Assembly (NCBI GenBank): GCA_947476675.1
Contig: CANJRL010000003.1
Location: forward strand, 1-64,000
Direction: 5' to 3'
From: Phycisphaerales bacterium
GTDB lineage: Bacteria > Planctomycetota > Phycisphaerae > Phycisphaerales > UBA1924
DNA: 64,000 nucleotides
Made by a program: the position numbers and the translations under genes. Each line of letters begins with the position of its first letter. Position 1 is the stretch's first letter. Below, one piece after another: positions 9,568 through 54,742 of this stretch. Under the pieces are notes generated by a model. It worked only from the letters and a program-made list of their open reading frames with translations. It had not been told where the DNA came from and did not search any database.

Positions 9568-9996
9568 TCAGTCCGCGAGGCTGTCGGGCAGCACCACCCT
9601 TCCGGCGGCGACGGCGCGGACGGCGGCGATGACCTTCAGCGGATCCGAGTGCTTCGCCACGAAGCCCCAGGCGCCCGCGGCCATGCAGCGCTCGACGATC
9701 GCCGCGTCGCAGACGCCGCTGAACACCAGCACGCGAGACCCCGGGGCCGACGCCGCGATCTCCGAGATCGTCTCGAGGGCGTCGCGCCCTCGCATCGTGA
9801 GGTCGAGCATCACGACGTGAGGCTGGCGGCGCAGCACCAGGTCGACCAGACCGTCGGCAGAAGTGGACGTCCCCACGACCCGGATGTCGGGCTGGGCCGA
9901 CAGGAGGCGCTCCCAGGCCGCGATCAGAAGGTGAGAGTCGTCTACGCAGACGAGCCGGATATGCCCTTCCGGAGCGGACCCTGCGGGGGATTCCAT
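9568..9996 (-). CDS. Second receiver-only response regulator
   Basis: 142 residues from the ATG at 9996. Upstream in-frame codons exist but lie outside the domain. The receiver has the acidic pair in VCVDDS, phosphoacceptor Asp65 in LDLTMRG (Arg where Pro is usual), the switch Ser (VFSGVCD) and Lys in FVAKHSDPLK. It ends a few residues past the domain (VVLPDSLAD), where NarL-type regulators would continue into a helix-turn-helix. It is convergent with the kinase-regulator pair, with only 13 nt between stops, so it may be a competing or parallel target of the same kinase. Confidence 0.88.
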   Translation of the reverse strand: MESPAGSAPEGHIRLVCVDDSHLLIAAWERLLSAQPDIRVVGTSTSADGLVDLVLRRQPHVVMLDLTMRGRDALETISEIAASAPGSRVLVFSGVCDAAIVERCMAAGAWGFVAKHSDPLKVIAAVRAVAAGRVVLPDSLAD

Positions 9997-10128
9997 GCGT
10001 CGATCGTAGTGATCCCGCGCGCCGACCGGGGAGGGGTGACTTGCGGGATTCGCGTCATCGGAAGCGGTGGGGCGCGGGTGATGCCTGCGCGCAGGCCGGG
10101 GCGCCGACACGCGCTGCGCGGCCGCCGC

Positions 10129-12234
10129 TCACCAGATCCGGGCTCGCGCATCGGGGGGGAGGAAGGACTTGTCGCCCGGCTGGACGCCGAAGGCGCGGTA
10201 CCACTCGTCGATGTGGCGGGGAGGCGTCGCGGCGCGGACCGGCCCCGGCGAGTGGACGTCGTTGATGATGCGCTGGCGGAGGGCCTCGTCGCGGAGAGCC
10301 ACGCGCCACACCTGGGCCCAGCCGAGGAAGACGCGCTGGACGCCGCTGAAACCGTCGATCTCCGGCGCGGGCTTCCCCTTGAGCGAGAGGCGATAGGCGT
10401 CGAGGGCGAGGAGCAGGCCGCCGAGGTCGGCGATGTTCTCTCCCATGGTCTGCTCGGCCTTGAGGCGCATGCTGGGGAACTGCTGGAACTCGACGGCCTC
10501 GTAGGTGGCGCCGAGGGCCTTGGAGCGGGCGACGAACTGCTCGGCGTCGGCGGCGGTCCACCAGTCGGTGAGTCGGCCTTCGCCGTCGGACTTGCGCCCC
10601 TGGTCGTCGAATCCGTGGGTGATCTCGTGGCCGATGACGGCGCCGATGCCGCCGTAGTTGACCGCGGCGTCGGCGGCGGGGTCGAAGAACGGCGGCTGGA
10701 GGATGGCGGCGGGGAAGACGATCTCGTTGCGCGTCGACGAGTAGTACGCGTTGACGGTCTGGGGGGTCATGCCGAAGTCGGCCCTGTCGACCGGCTTGCC
10801 GAGGCGGGCGGCCCAGAAGTCGGCGTTGTGGCGGCGGGCGCGGAGGGAGTTGCCCACGAGGTCGCCGGGCTTGATCTCGAGACTGGAGTAGTCGCGCCAC
10901 TTGGAGGGGTATCCGATCTTGAGGCCGAACTTCGAGAGTTTGTCGAGGGCCTTGGCCTTGGTGTCGGGGGTCATCCAGTCGAGGGCCTGGATGCGGGACT
11001 TCATCGAGGCGCGGAGATTCTCGACGAGGGCCTCGACCTGGGCCTTGGAGGACGCGGGGAAGAAGCGCTCGACATATTCGCGGCCGAGGGCCTCGCCCAT
11101 GGCCCGCTCGACGAAGCGCACGCCGCGCTTCCAGCGCTCTTCCTGGGCGGGGACGCCGTTGAGGAAGCCCTGGCGGAACGCGAAGTGGGCGTCGGTAAAC
11201 CGCTTGCTGAGGAGCGGAGCGGCGCCGTCGACGGCGTGGAAGGCGGCCCAGGACTGGAGGGTGGCGAGGTCGGCCTTCTGGAGCGCCGAGGCGATCTCGG
11301 GGAACGCGGATTTCTGCGAGATGATGGCCTTCTTCACGCCGGCGAGGCGGGCGCCTTCGAAGTACCTGGGCCAATCGAAGCCCGGGGTCAGGCTCTCGAG
11401 TTCGGCCGGGGTCATCGGGTTGTAGGTCTTCTCGACCTGGCGGCTCTGGGCGATCGACCAGTGGGCGTTGGCGAGCTCCGTCTCGAAGGCAAGTACCTTG
11501 TCCGCGGCGGCGGACGCGTCCGGCCAGTTGACCATGCCCAGGAGCGAGGCGATGTACTCGCGGTACTTGGCCCGGTGGTTGGCGAAGGAGTCGCGGAGGT
11601 AGAACTCGCGGTCGCCCAGGCCCAGGCCCGATTGGAACACGCGGAGCGAGTAATAGTCGGGCTCCTTGGGGTCGTCGCTGACGCGGGCGTTGAACGCGGA
11701 GACGCCGAGGCCGGCGCTGGCGCGGCCCATGAGCGCGCACATGTCGCCGAGGGTGCGCGCCGCGCGGATCTCGTCGAGCAAGGGCTGGACCGGCTTGGCG
11801 TCGAGAGCCTCAACTGCCGCCTCATCCATGTAACTGGCGTAGAGGGCGGCGAGCCTGCCGCGGTCGCCCTCGGTCTGGCCCTTGAGCGACTCGAGGATCT
11901 CGCGGCAGCGCTCGACCGAGAGCTCGTCGAGGCGGGAGAAGGGACCGTCGATCGAGCGGTCGGGCGGGATGACCACGTTCTTGGCCCAGACACCGCTGGT
12001 AAAGAGGAAGAAATCATCCCCGGGCTTGACGGAGCGGTCCATGCCGGCCGCGTCAAAGCCCCAGGCCCCGATGGCGGCGGCGTTGGCCGCGGGCTTCGAA
12101 GGCGGGGTCGAGGAAGTCTGAGCCTGCGCGGTGGCGGCGGCCGCCAGGGCGGTCGTCACCGCGGCGAGCATCGCTCGGCGGAAGGCGCTTCGGGCGGCGC
12201 CGATCAACGGCGCGACGTGGCGATGCGTGATCAT
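10129..12234 (-). CDS. M13 family zinc metallopeptidase (neprilysin/PepO type), exported
   Basis: 701 residues with an N-terminal export signal (AMLAAVTTALAAAATAQAQ). The mature protein starts with the usual M13 motif around VKPGDDFFLFTSGVW. The zinc site is HEITH (His536-His540), and the third ligand lies in GENIADLGG downstream. NAYYSSTRNEIVFPAAI is the substrate-binding NAYY motif of the family. The length matches typical bacterial members. These enzymes cleave oligopeptides on the amino side of hydrophobic residues. The C-terminus ends RIW, close to the family's CxxW ending. The gene lies 96 nt downstream of the TolC-like gene on the same strand and may be read from the same transcript or its own promoter. 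Confidence 0.93.
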   Translation of the reverse strand: MITHRHVAPLIGAARSAFRRAMLAAVTTALAAAATAQAQTSSTPPSKPAANAAAIGAWGFDAAGMDRSVKPGDDFFLFTSGVWAKNVVIPPDRSIDGPFSRLDELSVERCREILESLKGQTEGDRGRLAALYASYMDEAAVEALDAKPVQPLLDEIRAARTLGDMCALMGRASAGLGVSAFNARVSDDPKEPDYYSLRVFQSGLGLGDREFYLRDSFANHRAKYREYIASLLGMVNWPDASAAADKVLAFETELANAHWSIAQSRQVEKTYNPMTPAELESLTPGFDWPRYFEGARLAGVKKAIISQKSAFPEIASALQKADLATLQSWAAFHAVDGAAPLLSKRFTDAHFAFRQGFLNGVPAQEERWKRGVRFVERAMGEALGREYVERFFPASSKAQVEALVENLRASMKSRIQALDWMTPDTKAKALDKLSKFGLKIGYPSKWRDYSSLEIKPGDLVGNSLRARRHNADFWAARLGKPVDRADFGMTPQTVNAYYSSTRNEIVFPAAILQPPFFDPAADAAVNYGGIGAVIGHEITHGFDDQGRKSDGEGRLTDWWTAADAEQFVARSKALGATYEAVEFQQFPSMRLKAEQTMGENIADLGGLLLALDAYRLSLKGKPAPEIDGFSGVQRVFLGWAQVWRVALRDEALRQRIINDVHSPGPVRAATPPRHIDEWYRAFGVQPGDKSFLPPDARARIW

Positions 12235-47581: not shown

Positions 47582-47674
47582 GGCGGGCGATCGGGGCCCG
47601 ACATGCCGCCGGTAGGATGCACGAGCCGCCCGGCGATGCCGCCGCGCGCCTCCGCTCCTTTGCCGAGTGAGCCC

Positions 47675-50068
47675 ATGCCAAACCCTCGCCTCCTCCGCGT
47701 GCTGCCCGTCGTCGCGGCGGCCTTCTCCCTGCTCGGCGCGGCCGGGTGCGCCACCGAGCCGGCCACCACCGCCGACGAGCGCGCCGCCCGCGAGGCGGCC
47801 CGCGAATCAGTACGCGAGGCCAAGGCCCGCGAGGCGGCGAAGGCGGAGGCGGAGAAGAAGCCGGCCGGGCCTCAGTCGCGCGCCCCCGGCGCAGCGCCCG
47901 GCGCGCTCGCCGACCCCGCCTTCCTCGAGCAGTGGGCCGCGACCTACCGCTTCCGCCTCGGCAACCCCACGGCGTTCGCCCTGACCCCCGACGGCGGCGC
48001 CGCGTGCTTCCTCCGCTCCGGGCCCCGCTCCTTCGTCAACGACCTCTACGAGTTCGACCTGGCCACCGGCAAGGAGCGCGTCCTGCTCACCGCCGAGCAG
48101 ATCCTCCGCGGGAAGAACGAGGTCCTCACCGCGGAAGAACTGGCGCGGCGCGAGCGGATGCGCATGGCGTCGCGCGGCATCGCCTCGTTCCGCCTCTCCG
48201 ACGACGGGGCGAAGATTCTCGTGCCCCTCTCGGGGAGACTCTTTGTCGTCGACCGCTCGACCGGGGCCGCGACCGAACTCAGAGGCGCCGAAGGCTTCCC
48301 GATCGACCCGCGCTTCTCGCCCGACGGCGCCTCCGTCGCCTGCGTCCGCGACGGCGATCTGTACCTCGCCTCGATCGCGGCCAACGCCGAGCGGCGGCTC
48401 ACCACGCGGCCCGCCCCCACCGTGAGCAACGGCGTCGCCGAGTTCGTCGCCCAGGAGGAGATGGGCCGCCAGCGCGGCTACTGGTTCTCTCCCGACTCCT
48501 CCATGATCGCCTACGCCAGGGTCGACACCGCCGGGGTCGAGGTGTTCACGATCATGGACCCGACGGACCCCGCGAAGCAGCCGCAAGCGTGGCCCTATCC
48601 GCGCGCCGGGAAGAAGAACGCGGCGGTGGCCCTCGGGGTGCTGTCGGTGACCGATCCCTCCGCGGCGCCCGCGACGGTCTGGGCCCGCTGGGACCGCGAG
48701 CGCTTCCCATACCTCGCGACCGTGACCTGGGACGAGGGCGCGCCGCTCGCCATCCTGGTGCAGAACCGCGAGCAGACCGAGCAAACCCTGCTCGAAGTCG
48801 ACCCCAGGACCGGCGAGACGCGCCAACTTCTCGTGGAGCGCGACGCGGCATGGCTCAACCTCGATCACGCCTTCCCCAAGTGGCTCAAGGGAGGGGCGGG
48901 GTTCCTGTGGTCCACCGAGCGCAGCGGCTCCTGGGAACTCGAACTCCGCGACCGTGCCGGATCGCACCTCCGCACGCTCTGCGGGGCCAACATCAACTAC
49001 CGCGAGGGCCTCGCGGGGCTCGATGAGCGCGCCGGCTACGCCTACGTGATGGGAGGGGAGGACACGACCGAGCAGCACCTGTACCGCGTGCCGCTGGACC
49101 CGGCGCGCGGCGCGCCCGAGCGGCTCACGACCGCGCCGGGCGTGCACGGCGCGGTCTTCGCCAAGAACTCGTCCGCGCGCGTGCTGTCGCACGAGCGCTT
49201 CGACAGCCCCCCGCGATGGGCCGCCGTCCGCGCCGATGGGAGCGAGGCGGGGGCCATCGCTTCGGTGAGCGAGCGCCCGCCGTTCGCTCCGCGCATGCAG
49301 TTTGTCGACCTCTCGATCGAGGGCCGAACGCACAAGGCCTCGGTGATCCGACCGCGGGATTTCGAGCCCTCGAAGCGGTACCCGGTCATCCTCTCGGTGT
49401 ACGGCGGGCCGGGGGTGGCGGTGGTGTCGACCGCCTCGCGCACCGCCCTGCTCGACCAGTGGTACGCGGACCACGGCTTCATCGTTGTCTCCGCCGACGG
49501 GCGAGGCACACCGGGCCGGGGGCGCGCGTGGGAGCGGGCGATCAAGGACGACTTTGTGACCGTGCCGCTGGGGGATCAGGTCGCCGCGCTCCGGGCCCTG
49601 GGCGCGCGGTTCCCGGAGATGGACCTGTCGCGCGTCGGCGTGTACGGCTGGTCCTTCGGGGGGTACTTCTCGGCGATGGCGATCATGCGCGAGCCGGGGG
49701 TCTTCCACGCCGCCGTTGCAGGGGCGCCCGTGTGCGCATGGGAGGACTACGACACCCACTACACCGAGCGGTACCTCGGCACGCCGCAGAGCAACCCCTC
49801 GGGCTACCGCGACGGCAACGTCGCGACCTGGGCAAGGGACCTGCGCCGACCCCTGCTCATCGCCCACGGCACTGCGGACGACAACGTGTACTTCATGCAC
49901 GCGCTCAAGATGAGCGACGCCCTCTTCCGCGCCGGGAAGCAGCACGAGTTCCTCCCACTCGCCAGCTTTACCCACATGGTGCCCGATCCCCTCGTCACAC
50001 GCCGCCTCTACTCGCGCGTCGCGGAGCACTTCGTCGAGCACCTGCGGCGTTCCCCCGCGCCGGAGTGA
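47675..50068 (+). CDS. Dipeptidyl-peptidase IV-type S9 serine peptidase, lipoprotein
   Basis: 797 residues from the ATG at 47675. The signal ends in a lipobox (FSLLGAAGCATEP), so the protein is probably a lipid-anchored envelope enzyme. A charged Ala/Glu/Lys linker leads to a beta-propeller (about residues 90-540; the Glu pair in FVAQEEMGR binds the substrate N-terminus in DPP-IV). An alpha/beta-hydrolase domain follows, with Ser in YGWSFGGYFSAM, Asp in HGTADDNVY and His in FTHMVPDP. Family members release X-Pro or X-Ala dipeptides. It is followed only 3 nt later by the convergent nagZ. Confidence 0.93.
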   Translation: MPNPRLLRVLPVVAAAFSLLGAAGCATEPATTADERAAREAARESVREAKAREAAKAEAEKKPAGPQSRAPGAAPGALADPAFLEQWAATYRFRLGNPTAFALTPDGGAACFLRSGPRSFVNDLYEFDLATGKERVLLTAEQILRGKNEVLTAEELARRERMRMASRGIASFRLSDDGAKILVPLSGRLFVVDRSTGAATELRGAEGFPIDPRFSPDGASVACVRDGDLYLASIAANAERRLTTRPAPTVSNGVAEFVAQEEMGRQRGYWFSPDSSMIAYARVDTAGVEVFTIMDPTDPAKQPQAWPYPRAGKKNAAVALGVLSVTDPSAAPATVWARWDRERFPYLATVTWDEGAPLAILVQNREQTEQTLLEVDPRTGETRQLLVERDAAWLNLDHAFPKWLKGGAGFLWSTERSGSWELELRDRAGSHLRTLCGANINYREGLAGLDERAGYAYVMGGEDTTEQHLYRVPLDPARGAPERLTTAPGVHGAVFAKNSSARVLSHERFDSPPRWAAVRADGSEAGAIASVSERPPFAPRMQFVDLSIEGRTHKASVIRPRDFEPSKRYPVILSVYGGPGVAVVSTASRTALLDQWYADHGFIVVSADGRGTPGRGRAWERAIKDDFVTVPLGDQVAALRALGARFPEMDLSRVGVYGWSFGGYFSAMAIMREPGVFHAAVAGAPVCAWEDYDTHYTERYLGTPQSNPSGYRDGNVATWARDLRRPLLIAHGTADDNVYFMHALKMSDALFRAGKQHEFLPLASFTHMVPDPLVTRRLYSRVAEHFVEHLRRSPAPE

Positions 50069-50071
50069 GCC

Positions 50072-51190
50072 TCAGGCCCGCGGCCGCCCGACCAGCGTCG
50101 CCTCGATGCGGGCGGCGCTGAGGGCAAGCCTCTCGATCCCCCCCACCACGCGGCCGTCGGTCACGGCCCGGGCCACCGCCTCGTGCATCGCGGGGGCCGG
50201 GCAGGCGCGGGGATCGCCCGGCGCGTTGTTGCAATCGAGGAGCACATCCGCCCCCGCGTTGATCGCGAGCACGAGCGCCTCCTCCGGCGCGTAGCGCCCA
50301 GTCACCGCCCCCATGTCGAGCGAATCGACGACGACCGGGCCCTCGAACCCCAGCCGCTCGCGCAGGACCCCCGTCGTCCACGCGCGCGAGAGGCTCGCCG
50401 GGTGATCGGGGTCGAAGAGCCGGTGGTGGACGTGCCCGGTCATGACCGCGACAGCCGACCGACCGAGCGCGTCGAACATCATCCGGTATGGCGCCCACTC
50501 GAGTTCGGGAGAGTGCGTCTGCGTGATGTCGGCGAAGCCCAGGTGCGAATCGGCGGTCGATGAGCCGTGCCCCGGGAAGTGCTTCAGGCACGACGCCACG
50601 CCGGCGGCACGATGCGCCTCCACGACGAGCGATGCGCACGCCGCCGCCAGGGAGGGGTGGGCGGCGTAGGCGCGACGCTTCCCGGCGATGATCGGGTTGG
50701 CGGGGTTGAGCGCCAGGTCCACGCACGGGGCCAGGTTGAGCGTGAACCCGGCGTCGGCGACGGTGCGCGCTAGCGCCGCGGCCTCGGATCGCCGCCCGCT
50801 CTCGTCCAGTGCGGCGCACCCCGCCGCCGACAGCGTGCACGGGAACCCCCGAGCCCGCGACAGCCGCGCCACATCGCCCCCCTCCTGGTCCACCGCGACG
50901 ATCGCGCTGTCACCGAGAAAACGCTTCAGATGCTCGGTCAGCGCGCCCGTCTGACGCGGCCCGAGGATGTTGCGAACCGCTCTCGCCTTGGCCTCATCGC
51001 GCGTCACGCCGGCGCCCGTCAGCGCCGACATGGCGGGGAGGTCGACATCGAACAGGATCACCGCCGCGCAGCCGGCATCGCGGCACGCATCGAGATCGGC
51101 GCGCAGCGCCGGGTCGTCTTCCGAGGCGCCGCGGACGCCCACCATGAGCATGCGGGCGATGAGCCGGTCTCGCGCCGCGCCGTCGATCAC
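50072..51190 (-). CDS. nagZ: GH3 beta-N-acetylhexosaminidase, NagZ-like
   Basis: 372 residues from the GTG at 51190, which overlaps the transporter stop (GTGA). The protein has no signal peptide, so it is cytoplasmic. Typical NagZ segments are VDQEGGDVARL, KHFPGHGSSTADSHLG (the catalytic Asp-His dyad loop) and the nucleophile Asp in VVVDSLDMGAV. The C-terminal alpha/beta sandwich domain of larger GH3 enzymes is missing, as in NagZ. It would cut GlcNAc from anhydromuropeptides taken up by the cell. It is the last gene of the anmK-murQ-symporter-nagZ operon, each joined by a 4-nt overlap. Confidence 0.9.
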   Translation of the reverse strand: MIDGAARDRLIARMLMVGVRGASEDDPALRADLDACRDAGCAAVILFDVDLPAMSALTGAGVTRDEAKARAVRNILGPRQTGALTEHLKRFLGDSAIVAVDQEGGDVARLSRARGFPCTLSAAGCAALDESGRRSEAAALARTVADAGFTLNLAPCVDLALNPANPIIAGKRRAYAAHPSLAAACASLVVEAHRAAGVASCLKHFPGHGSSTADSHLGFADITQTHSPELEWAPYRMMFDALGRSAVAVMTGHVHHRLFDPDHPASLSRAWTTGVLRERLGFEGPVVVDSLDMGAVTGRYAPEEALVLAINAGADVLLDCNNAPGDPRACPAPAMHEAVARAVTDGRVVGGIERLALSAARIEATLVGRPRA

Positions 51191-52722
51191 GCGCGCGCCC
51201 CGGAGGGTGTCGGCCGGCCCGCCGCGCAGACCGCGAAGGCCAGAGCCGAGCCGATCAGCATCTGCCATCCCGACGAGAGCGCGGGCAGTTCCAGGGAGAA
51301 CCACGCCGGGAAGCGCATGACGAGCACCGCCGCGAACCCGGCGAAGATCGCGAGGCCCGCCGAGAGACCGTTGCCCCGCCGGGTGAACAGGGCCGTCAGG
51401 AACACGCCGAGCAGCCCGGTGTAGGCGAAGATCATCACGCCGATGGCGAACTGCAGCAGCCCCGCGCCCGAGTTCTGCTGCCACGCCACGCACACCAGGG
51501 CGAACGCGGCCAGGATCGCCCCCCACGCGCCGACCGCGATCCGCGAGGCCCTCATGTAGTGCGCCTCGCTGCGCCCGGGCCGCAGCGGCCTGTAAAAGTC
51601 GACCACCGCGGTGGAAGCCATCGCGGCCACCGCGGACGCGAGCGAGGACATCGCGGCCGCGAACACGCCGGCGATCATCAGCCCGCGCAGGCCGGTGGGG
51701 GTTTCCGAGAGGATGAAGCGCAGGAACACGGTGCGCGAATCGCCGGGGGGGGCCGGCGCCGCACCGCCCATGAGGTCGGGCCTCTGGTAGAAGAGGTACA
51801 GCAGCAGGCCGATCGCGAGGAACATCGCGGCGACGCCCAGACCGATGATGTTCGAAAGGACCGCCGACCAGGCGCCCCGGACGGCGCTGCGGCACGTGAG
51901 CATGCGCTGGGCGAGGTCCTGGTCGGCGCCGTAGACCGCCATGTTGAACAGCGTGAAGCCGAGCATCGCCGACCACACGGAGTAGGGCAAGGAGGCGTCG
52001 AGCCGCCAGTCGAGCACGGTCAGTTTCGAGGAGCCGTCGGAGGCCTTGGCGGAGGCGAGGGCCGCGTGCATCTCGGCGCCGCTGAGCGGGATCCTGGAGA
52101 CCAGAAGGGCCAGGGCCACCGCCGCGGCGCCGACGAAAACCACGGTCTGCGGCACCTCGGTCCAGATGACCGCGTGAAGCCCTCCGATCATCGTGTAGAG
52201 GGTGGCCACCGTTGCAACGACGGCGATGGCGAGCGCGAGATTCGAGGGGTCGAGGTCGCCGAAGGCGATCAGCGAGAACGGGACCGCCGCGACGTAGAGC
52301 CGGGCCCCCGAGGCCAGGACCCGCCCGAGCATGAAGGCGCCGCTGCACCACCGCTGCGCCCCGGGGCCGAAGCGGGCGCCGATCAGCTGGTAGATGCTCG
52401 TCACCTTCTCGCGGTAGAACACGGGCACAAAGAAGATCGCGACCAGCGCCACGGCGATGAACCCCGCGATGTTCAGGGAGAGGTAGGTCAGATTCCCCCT
52501 GTACGCGTCCTCCGGCGCGCCGATGAAGGTCACCGCGGACACCGACGTCGCGACGATCGAGATCGCGGCGGCCCAGACCGGGATGCGGTTGCCCGCGAGG
52601 AAGTACTCGCCGAGGTTCTTCTGGCGCCGGGCGAAGTAGGCGCCCATCCCCAGCATCGCCAGGAGGTAGCCGCCGAGCACGGACCAGTCGACGGCGTTGA
52701 GTGCGGGGCCCGGCGCGGTCAT
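51187..52722 (-). CDS. Sodium:solute symporter (SSS family), candidate wall-fragment importer
   Basis: 511 residues with about thirteen hydrophobic segments. The family pattern is visible at the start (GGYLLAMLGMGAYFARRQKN), where LGEYFLAGNRIPVWAAAISI is a typical SSS signature, and in the Na-site region (GVFAAAMSSLASAVAAMAST). SSS proteins import sugars, amino acids or sialic acid with sodium. Its position between murQ and nagZ, with 4-nt overlaps on both sides, makes a muropeptide sugar such as GlcNAc-anhydroMurNAc or anhydroMurNAc the likely substrate. That is inference from context; the sequence does not identify the ligand. No AmpG-like permease is seen here. Confidence 0.92.
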   Translation of the reverse strand: MTAPGPALNAVDWSVLGGYLLAMLGMGAYFARRQKNLGEYFLAGNRIPVWAAAISIVATSVSAVTFIGAPEDAYRGNLTYLSLNIAGFIAVALVAIFFVPVFYREKVTSIYQLIGARFGPGAQRWCSGAFMLGRVLASGARLYVAAVPFSLIAFGDLDPSNLALAIAVVATVATLYTMIGGLHAVIWTEVPQTVVFVGAAAVALALLVSRIPLSGAEMHAALASAKASDGSSKLTVLDWRLDASLPYSVWSAMLGFTLFNMAVYGADQDLAQRMLTCRSAVRGAWSAVLSNIIGLGVAAMFLAIGLLLYLFYQRPDLMGGAAPAPPGDSRTVFLRFILSETPTGLRGLMIAGVFAAAMSSLASAVAAMASTAVVDFYRPLRPGRSEAHYMRASRIAVGAWGAILAAFALVCVAWQQNSGAGLLQFAIGVMIFAYTGLLGVFLTALFTRRGNGLSAGLAIFAGFAAVLVMRFPAWFSLELPALSSGWQMLIGSALAFAVCAAGRPTPSGARA

Positions 52723-53648
52723 CGGGGGGCGCTCTCGAGGGCGGCGCGGAGGTTCCCGCCGGCGAGATCCAGCGCCGCCTCGGCGCGATCACGATCCGCA
52801 CCCAGGCGCCGCATGGCCACCGCCGTCTTCGCCGAGCCCCCGGCGGCGTCGAGCAGGGCGAAGGCCTCCTCGCGCGAGGCGCCGGTGATCTCCGACACGA
52901 TCCGCGCCGCGCGGTCCCGGAGTTTCTCGTTGGTCGCCCGCAGGTCGACCATCAGGTTCTCGTAGCACTTGCCCAGCCGGACCATGAGCGTTGTCGAGAC
53001 GGTGTTGAGGATCATCTTGGTCGCCGTCCCGGCCTTCAGCCGCGTCGACCCGGTGAGCGCCTCGGGGCCCGTCAGCGCCTCGATGAGGTGGCCGATGCCC
53101 GCGGGGCGCTGGGCCAGGTTCGCGCAGGTCAGCAGGCCGGTCACGCAGCCGCGCGCATGCGCGATGCGGAGCCCTCCGAGGACGTACGGCGTCGTCCCCC
53201 CGGCCGCGATGCCCAGCACCGCGTCCTTCGCCTTCAGCCCGATCGCGTCGAGGTCGGCGAGCGCCCCGTCCGGGTCATCTTCCCTCGACTCGCTCGATCG
53301 CCTCAGCGCCGCGTCCCCCCCGGCGATCAGCCCGACGACGAGGTCCGGCGGCGTCTGGAACGTCGGCGGGCACTCGCTCGCGTCGAGCACCCCGAGCCTG
53401 CCCGACGTCCCCGCGCCCACATACACAAGCCGCCCCCCGCCGCGCAGCCGCGCCTCCGCGTCGCGTATAAAACCGCACACCGCCGGCAGGGCTCGGGCCA
53501 CGGCGGAGGCGACCGTCGCGTCCTCCGCGTTCAGCAGAGCGGCGCACTCCTCGACCGACATCCCGTCGAGGCCCATCGAGCGGGGATTCCGCGCCTCGGT
53601 GAGAACACCCGACCGGTCGGGCGGGAGATGGCCGCGGCCGTCGTTCAC
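52719..53648 (-). CDS. murQ: N-acetylmuramic acid 6-phosphate etherase
   Basis: 309 residues from the GTG at 53648, which overlaps the anmK stop (GTGA). The family's opening text is present (TEARNPRSMGLDGMSVEECA). The SIS domain carries GGGRLVYVGAGTSGRLGVLD, then the conserved ASECPPTF, GLIAGGDAALRRSSE, GIAAGGTTPYV and the C-terminal NTVSTTLMVRLGKCYENLM. The enzyme removes lactate from MurNAc-6-phosphate to give GlcNAc-6-phosphate. It receives its substrate from AnmK, encoded just upstream, and its product enters amino-sugar metabolism. Confidence 0.94.
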   Translation of the reverse strand: MNDGRGHLPPDRSGVLTEARNPRSMGLDGMSVEECAALLNAEDATVASAVARALPAVCGFIRDAEARLRGGGRLVYVGAGTSGRLGVLDASECPPTFQTPPDLVVGLIAGGDAALRRSSESREDDPDGALADLDAIGLKAKDAVLGIAAGGTTPYVLGGLRIAHARGCVTGLLTCANLAQRPAGIGHLIEALTGPEALTGSTRLKAGTATKMILNTVSTTLMVRLGKCYENLMVDLRATNEKLRDRAARIVSEITGASREEAFALLDAAGGSAKTAVAMRRLGADRDRAEAALDLAGGNLRAALESAPR

Positions 53649-54742
53649 TGCGTGGGGCGGGTGTTGATCCACGCTCCCGAGATCGGCGCGGGGGCTGGGA
53701 CGCCCGTGACTTTTGGGAGCGTGATCGCAACGCCGTCGGCGCAGAGCGCGCCCAGCACCGCGATTTGGGCGGCCTCGCGGTGCGTGACCGGGACGCCCTC
53801 GCTGTCCGTGGGCCGGAGCGGGGCCCCGGCCGCGCGCCTCAGCGCCGAGACCAGCGCCCCGTTGCGCGCCCCCCCGCCCGCCACCAATACGAGCGCCGCG
53901 CGGTGCTCCGCCACAGCGCCGCCGATGACCTCGCCGACCCCCAGCGCCGCGGACGCGGCGAGATCCTCGGCGGCAAGCCGGTTCTTCCACGCGCTCACCC
54001 ACCCGGCGATCTCGTCGCCCGTGCCCAACGAGCGCCCCCCGATCCGCTGCGCGCCCAGAACATCGCGGAGCGATCGGACCGCAGCCGAGTCCGCCGACCC
54101 CCTCAGCGCCGCCTCGCCGTCGTTGTCGTACGGCCTTCCGAGCGCCGTTCGCGCGACCGCGTCGAGCACGTGGTTGCACGCGCACACGTCCATGCCGAGG
54201 ACCGCCCCGGGCTCGGCGCCGCCGGGCAGGATCGTCACGTTGCAGAAACCCCCGAGGTTCACCACGGCGCGGGTCTCGCCGGCGCGGAAGAACACCCAAT
54301 CAGCCAGAGGCGTGATCGGGGCCCCCTGCCCCCCCGCCGCCAGATCCGCGCCTCGCAGGTCGTGCACCACAGGGCAGCCCAGCGACCGCGCGATCGGCCA
54401 CGGGTTCAGCATCTGCCAGGAGAGCGGCGGCGAGTGGAACACCGTCTGCCCATGCACCGCGACAAAGTCCGGACGGCCCGCCGCGCCCGCCAGGCCGAGC
54501 AGCGCGTCGGCGTGCGCGACCCCGAGATCGCGCGCGAGCCCGGCGGCCTCGCCCGCGGTCATCGCCTCGCCCGAGGCCAGCGACCGCAGGCGCGGCGCCA
54601 GCGCTCCCAGCGGCGCCGCCGCGCACGCGACCACCCTCGCCCGCACGCCCAGACCCCGCCCCTCCAGGCGGACCGCCGCCGCGTCGAGCGCGTCGATGCT
54701 CGTGCCCGTCATGCACCCGAAGACCAGCCGGCTCTCGGTCAC
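53645..54742 (-). CDS. anmK: Anhydro-N-acetylmuramic acid kinase
   Basis: 365 residues. The first gene of the recycling operon. GCMTGTSIDALDAAAVRLEG at the N-terminus is the ATP-phosphate loop of this ASKHA-fold kinase, followed by VHGQTVFHSPPLSWQMLNP, VVHDLRGADLAAGGQGAPITP, VNLGGFCNVT and VLVAGGGARNG. It hydrolyses the 1,6-anhydro bond of anhydroMurNAc while phosphorylating it, giving MurNAc-6-phosphate for MurQ. The substrate arises only from wall turnover by lytic transglycosylases, so the gene implies peptidoglycan in this organism or its prey. Confidence 0.95.
   Translation of the reverse strand: MTESRLVFGCMTGTSIDALDAAAVRLEGRGLGVRARVVACAAAPLGALAPRLRSLASGEAMTAGEAAGLARDLGVAHADALLGLAGAAGRPDFVAVHGQTVFHSPPLSWQMLNPWPIARSLGCPVVHDLRGADLAAGGQGAPITPLADWVFFRAGETRAVVNLGGFCNVTILPGGAEPGAVLGMDVCACNHVLDAVARTALGRPYDNDGEAALRGSADSAAVRSLRDVLGAQRIGGRSLGTGDEIAGWVSAWKNRLAAEDLAASAALGVGEVIGGAVAEHRAALVLVAGGGARNGALVSALRRAAGAPLRPTDSEGVPVTHREAAQIAVLGALCADGVAITLPKVTGVPAPAPISGAWINTRPTQ

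Follow-up and report, generated by a model that had tools for sequence, protein, structure and literature searches.

An SSS-family Na+ symporter encoded among peptidoglycan-sugar genes of a Phycisphaerales bacterium probably takes up peptide-free GlcNAc-anhydroMurNAc by Na+ symport, after which NagZ, AnmK and MurQ would act on the sugar in turn. It is likewise the more probable reading of the sequences that this SSS takes over the role of AmpG by non-orthologous replacement. AmpG, a member of the MFS, is the textbook importer of anhydro-muropeptides. A wider claim, for and against which the scales are about level, is that a widespread Planctomycetota SSS subfamily, with more distant peptidoglycan- or GH20-linked relatives in Verrucomicrobiota, represents the first sodium-driven importer of GlcNAc-1,6-anhydroMurNAc, and that it has been exchanged with AmpG several times beside homologous cytosolic enzymes, the peptides being removed outside the cytoplasm. 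Confirmation of a wall in Planctomycetota came only in 2015; if the claim is true, a sodium-driven AmpG replacement would open wall turnover in this phylum to direct testing, and AmpG-negative genomes would be read differently.

The window, which is the whole stretch of 64,000 nucleotides that was analysed, belongs to a genome of 2.72 Mb that is 91.6% complete. All four genes are encoded on the minus strand. The anmK gene (53645..54742, GTG start, 365 aa) encodes a 1,6-anhydro-MurNAc kinase of a divergent subfamily, which matches PF03702 with 155 bits (E=4e-45) and has the AnmK entries 3cqy, 8bre and 3qbw as its closest PDB chains, with levoglucosan kinases ranking lower. The motif reads DVCACN in place of the canonical DTGPGN, with the motif aspartate retained. 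Action of this variant on another anhydro sugar was set aside, since genomes with AmpG have the motif too (G113) and anmK remains together with murQ. The product of murQ (52719..53648, GTG start, 309 aa) is a MurNAc-6-phosphate etherase that exceeds the TIGR00274 cut-off (343 bits against 302) and matches the PDB MurQ 4s12 at E=9e-74. This is followed by the SSS gene (51187..52722, ATG start, 511 aa; PF00474), the proposed GlcNAc-1,6-anhydroMurNAc importer, and by a nagZ-like gene for a GH3 beta-N-acetylhexosaminidase (50072..51190, GTG start, 372 aa). The latter protein matches PF00933 with 158 bits (E=6e-46) and the PRK05337 hexosaminidase model with 136 bits, short of the 207 that NCBIfam sets as the equivalog cut-off. 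Its KHFPGHGSSTADSH motif and DS motif both align with solved GH3 enzymes, its closest solved structures are GH3 beta-N-acetylhexosaminidases, and the absence of an N-terminal hydrophobic segment, and hence of a signal peptide, predicts a cytosolic location.

Each neighbouring pair of genes overlaps by 4 nt: GTGA between anmK and murQ (53645-53648), ATGA between murQ and the SSS gene (52719-52722) and GTGA between the SSS gene and nagZ (51187-51190). The coordinates and family matches thus bear out the preliminary description, which had the four genes joined by these overlaps. The best explanation of the layout is one translationally coupled operon, predicted to take up and break down the glycan products of peptidoglycan turnover. 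The same gene set recurs in other genera at about 46-53% SSS identity, and the arrangement is therefore more than chance.

Sequence comparison matched all three of the E. coli-type recycling enzymes AnmK, MurQ and cytosolic NagZ. The operon has these homologues, the anhydro-sugar logic and the cytosolic processing in common with the AmpG-NagZ-AnmK-MurQ system of E. coli. However, the importer here is an SSS protein of the LeuT fold whereas that of E. coli is the MFS protein AmpG, the genes here form one coupled operon, and neither a cytosolic AmpD-type amidase nor a convincing NagA was found. The absence of ampG anticipated earlier was borne out, with no AmpG match (TIGR00901) in the 91.6% complete genome, where the transporter of the operon is the SSS. 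For NagA, the genome gave no convincing match to TIGR00221, only partial ones (best E=9e-7, within a 1119 aa frame), and the same lack extends across its family, f1, including the single-contig member G095. GlcNAc-6-P must therefore go by another route. In view of this and of the missing cytosolic AmpD, the description of the set as a “complete” recycling operon was too strong.

The SSS protein matches PF00474 (SSF) with 105 bits (E=5e-30) and TIGR00813 with 162 bits, under the cut-off of 184. The closest PDB entry is SiaT (5nv9), both by sequence (E=9e-51) and by fold (Foldseek E=2e-24), and the AlphaFold model (mean pLDDT 90.4) has a LeuT-like fold with a TM of 0.82-0.89 to SiaT. In SiaT the Na+ ion of the Na2 site is held by Ala56, Leu59, Ala339, Ser342 and Ser343 (PMC5931594). 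These residues align with A58, V61, A356, S359 and S360 of the SSS, and A58, A356, S359 and S360 are each at least 93% conserved in an alignment of 117 homologues. The carboxylate of Neu5Ac is bound in SiaT by Ser60, Thr63 and Arg135 (PMC5931594). Two of the three are kept, as S62 and T65, which together with the Na2 serines are 93-100% conserved among the 117 homologues. The salt-bridge residue Arg135 has no equivalent in place, the aligned position being Ala137; Arg134 and Arg141 lie one turn either side of it and are 73% and 95% conserved, respectively, in the same set. Thus, the Na2 site and the equivalents of Ser60 and Thr63 are shared with SiaT, whereas Arg135 and, in the alignment, Gln82 are not conserved and the gene context differs. 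The binding-site serine is also common to SSS members of other specificity. These residues fit Na+ symport of a carboxylated sugar and do not single out the sugar itself; the substrate and the sodium coupling are both predictions from sequence and fold.

The SSS was scanned for across 294 genomes of the phylum, with strong matches in 44, and the loci were read by six-frame HMM scans, automatic gene calls being unreliable at high GC. Within its own family, five of the six sampled relatives carry the SSS and all five keep the order anmK-murQ-SSS-nagZ; the relative G172 has neither SSS nor AnmK. The expected conservation of the four-gene order therefore holds in the family, while other arrangements are found elsewhere and one clade of 26 members, discussed below, is unlinked. 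Other families show SSS-anmK-murQ (G198, G220, G040, G017), SSS-GH20-anmK-murQ with a cytosolic GH20 hexosaminidase in place of NagZ (G232, G097, G144, G262, G288) or SSS-GHL10-murQ-GH20 (G077), and SSS-nagZ pairs occur in deeper clades. A scan of named genomes placed the nearest SSS relatives in Planctomycetota, mostly Phycisphaerales. It also recovered additional linked loci, among them SSS-anmK-murQ in Planctomycetales bacterium ZRK34, whose genome is complete, as well as SSS-GH20 pairs in Verrucomicrobiota, which are more distant. The SSS of G231, likewise a more distant one, has an M15 D-Ala-D-Ala dipeptidase as its neighbour.

A cytosolic hexosaminidase, either NagZ or GH20, adjoins the SSS in most linked loci. 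The partner GH20 proteins contain GH20 catalytic domains, and no signal-peptide-like segment was seen upstream of the partner NagZ and GH20 domains, so the imported sugar should carry a terminal beta-GlcNAc. Two candidate substrates had been named, GlcNAc-anhydroMurNAc and anhydroMurNAc, and the adjoining hexosaminidase favours the disaccharide. The proposed route would begin with wall amidases outside the cytoplasm, which would remove the stem peptides, and with lytic transglycosylases, which would liberate GlcNAc-1,6-anhydroMurNAc. The SSS would take in this peptide-free, carboxylated disaccharide with Na+. In the cytosol, NagZ would cleave it to GlcNAc and anhydroMurNAc, AnmK would convert the anhydroMurNAc to MurNAc-6-P, and MurQ would convert this to GlcNAc-6-P and D-lactate. 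As sources of the sugar, recycling of the cell’s own wall and scavenging would look alike by sequence.

It is possible, though rather unlikely, that the sugar taken up by the SSS is a monosaccharide, either anhydroMurNAc or MurNAc, in the manner reported for MurT of T. forsythia, and that the disaccharide for NagZ arrives otherwise. MurT takes up MurNAc, lies in murTKQ and is described as belonging to the “sodium symporter superfamily” in one passage and to the MFS in another (PMC5790795); its gene is transcribed as a single unit together with ampG, murK and murQ (PMC5388701). The MurT-MurK-MurQ system thus resembles the operon in that an importer reported to be of the sodium symporter superfamily shares a transcript with murQ (PMC5790795, PMC5388701), and SSS uptake of a muramic sugar has a reported precedent. 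Carboxylated amino sugars are taken up by several SSS members, among them SiaT, SiaX (PMC10955332) and OngIT (PMC9537276). SiaT (PMC5931594) and OngIT take monosaccharides, and several relatives have SSS-anmK-murQ with no adjoining hexosaminidase. OngIT resembles the present SSS in being encoded in a glycan-utilisation cluster, but its substrate, GlcNAc1A, is a monosaccharide from oxidised chitin (PMC9537276). However, the cytosolic NagZ or GH20 beside most linked SSS genes would be pointless without import of a disaccharide, and the genome has no AmpG match to bring one in. Moreover, the SSS alternates with AmpG, the minimal substrate of which is the disaccharide (PMC7670621). T. forsythia itself has AmpG and no predicted AnmK (PMC7670621). 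MurT delivers MurNAc to a MurNAc kinase, whereas AnmK and NagZ here imply an anhydro-disaccharide; the comparison with MurT draws on its published descriptions.

The amidases bear on the form in which the disaccharide would be imported. The genome, 91.6% complete, yielded a single Amidase_2 protein, whose N-terminal membrane segment indicates that it is membrane-anchored. The Amidase_2 proteins of relatives, where readable, look like exported ones, and several have LysM-like stretches. No cytosolic AmpD-type amidase was thus found, and the simplest assumption is import of a sugar free of peptide. Import of peptide-bearing anhydro-muropeptides, as by AmpG, would agree with the alternation of the SSS and AmpG and with the dipeptidase neighbour in G231. 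This is improbable given the location of the amidases, and the solved SSS members have, to our knowledge, small known substrates.

The replacement of AmpG by the SSS is suggested by family f15. Sixteen of its 23 genomes hold the AnmK subfamily, and these comprise six with the SSS and no AmpG, nine with AmpG and no SSS, and one with neither. The overlap of zero has a hypergeometric P = 9e-4, uncorrected for kinship, and the counts include incomplete MAGs, in which missing genes add noise. The AmpG genomes G009, G113, G174 and G187 keep the homologous GH20-anmK-murQ core without the SSS. In genus g72 (G113, G279), ampG adjoins GH20 in divergent orientation, and genus g100 holds both states, with the SSS in G097 and G252 and AmpG in G174. 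A kinship-aware test gave about 5 switches by parsimony and 2 independent pairs on well-supported branches, so that phylogeny-corrected support for the exchange is weak. With the lack of AmpG in the genome itself and the linkage to peptidoglycan genes across the phylum, this alternation leaves import of an anhydro-muro-sugar, as first proposed, the best reading of the sequences. Exchange within one family also makes the substrate claim open to simple complementation.

A precedent for such a replacement is the YejBEF-YepA system of Agrobacterium, a non-AmpG importer of peptidoglycan fragments in bacteria without AmpG, with occasional co-existence (PMC9790009). There an unrelated importer is known to replace AmpG, as is proposed for the SSS, but YejBEF-YepA is an ABC transporter of peptide-bearing muropeptides from Alphaproteobacteria. 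This ABC system and the MurNAc carriers are the replacements of AmpG so far described in the literature consulted. An SSS annotated “nis” stands beside murQ and ampG in a Bacteroidota PUL (PMC10199937), and may be related to that of the operon. The open-access literature yielded nothing direct on an SSS with anmK or murQ in Planctomycetes, and no published description of an SSS replacing AmpG beside anmK-murQ and a hexosaminidase. The novelty appears to lie in this placement and its conservation in a phylum. The operon does not settle the debate on peptidoglycan in Planctomycetes, on which it had been thought to bear; peptidoglycan was reported there in 2015, by a report cited in a passage of PMC5814848.

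In a tree of the 117 homologues, the SSS of the window falls inside a well-supported clade of 58, of which 27 members are linked to peptidoglycan genes. A marine sub-clade of 26 members, of similar identity, stands away from peptidoglycan genes and beside a convergent aminotransferase gene. These close homologues outside peptidoglycan gene sets would accord with an SSS that carries a solute unrelated to muramic sugars and sits in the operon by happenstance. This reading has little probability, as the linkage recurs in 27 of the 58 clade members and in several arrangements, with NagZ replaced by GH20 and the gene order changed. Among the genomes with unlinked members that were searched, most also carry AnmK elsewhere, in the majority of cases from the same low-scoring subfamily; none of the 20 anmK loci read contains the other peptidoglycan genes.

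Mutual exclusion of AmpG and the SSS across the phylum was considered and rejected, as it is true in f15 and fails in the unlinked marine clade. Some genomes of this 26-member clade also hold an AmpG-like MFS protein at about 130-170 bits. Such a match occurs in 12 of the 59 SSS-clade genomes, namely in 1 of 27 with a linked SSS and in 11 of 32 in which it is unlinked or its linkage undetermined (Fisher P = 0.004, without correction for kinship).

In the operons ordered SSS-GH20-anmK-murQ, the position of the GH3 enzyme NagZ is taken by a GH20-family hexosaminidase without a signal peptide (positions 9619-11523 of locus L037, 7670-9427 of L042 and 11413-13122 of L043). This is a second non-orthologous replacement within one pathway. 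A GHL10 glycosidase-like gene sits between the symporter gene and murQ, with GH20 downstream, in genome G077 (L038:7678-8979) and also in L169. Its product shares a Pfam family with E. coli DigH, an enzyme that cleaves denuded glycan.

The AnmK of the window (53645-54742) and those of its relatives form a divergent subfamily, carrying DVCACN where the canonical motif is DTGPGN, and this subfamily occurs in SSS genomes and AmpG genomes alike. A profile search with TIGR00221 returned no convincing NagA in the window's own genome or its family, f1. MurQ nonetheless yields GlcNAc-6-P there, which implies that a different deacetylase acts on this product or that it has some other fate.

A close SSS clade (loci L154-L171 and L174-L192) lies apart from peptidoglycan genes and adjoins a convergent class I/II aminotransferase gene; in these genomes, anmK is solitary and located at a different site. 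In G231 (L062:10993-11661), an M15 D-Ala-D-Ala dipeptidase gene directly follows a more distant SSS. Within the window, a DPP-IV/S9 exopeptidase gene (47603-50068, plus strand) converges with the end of the anmK-murQ-SSS-nagZ operon, to which it may be unrelated.
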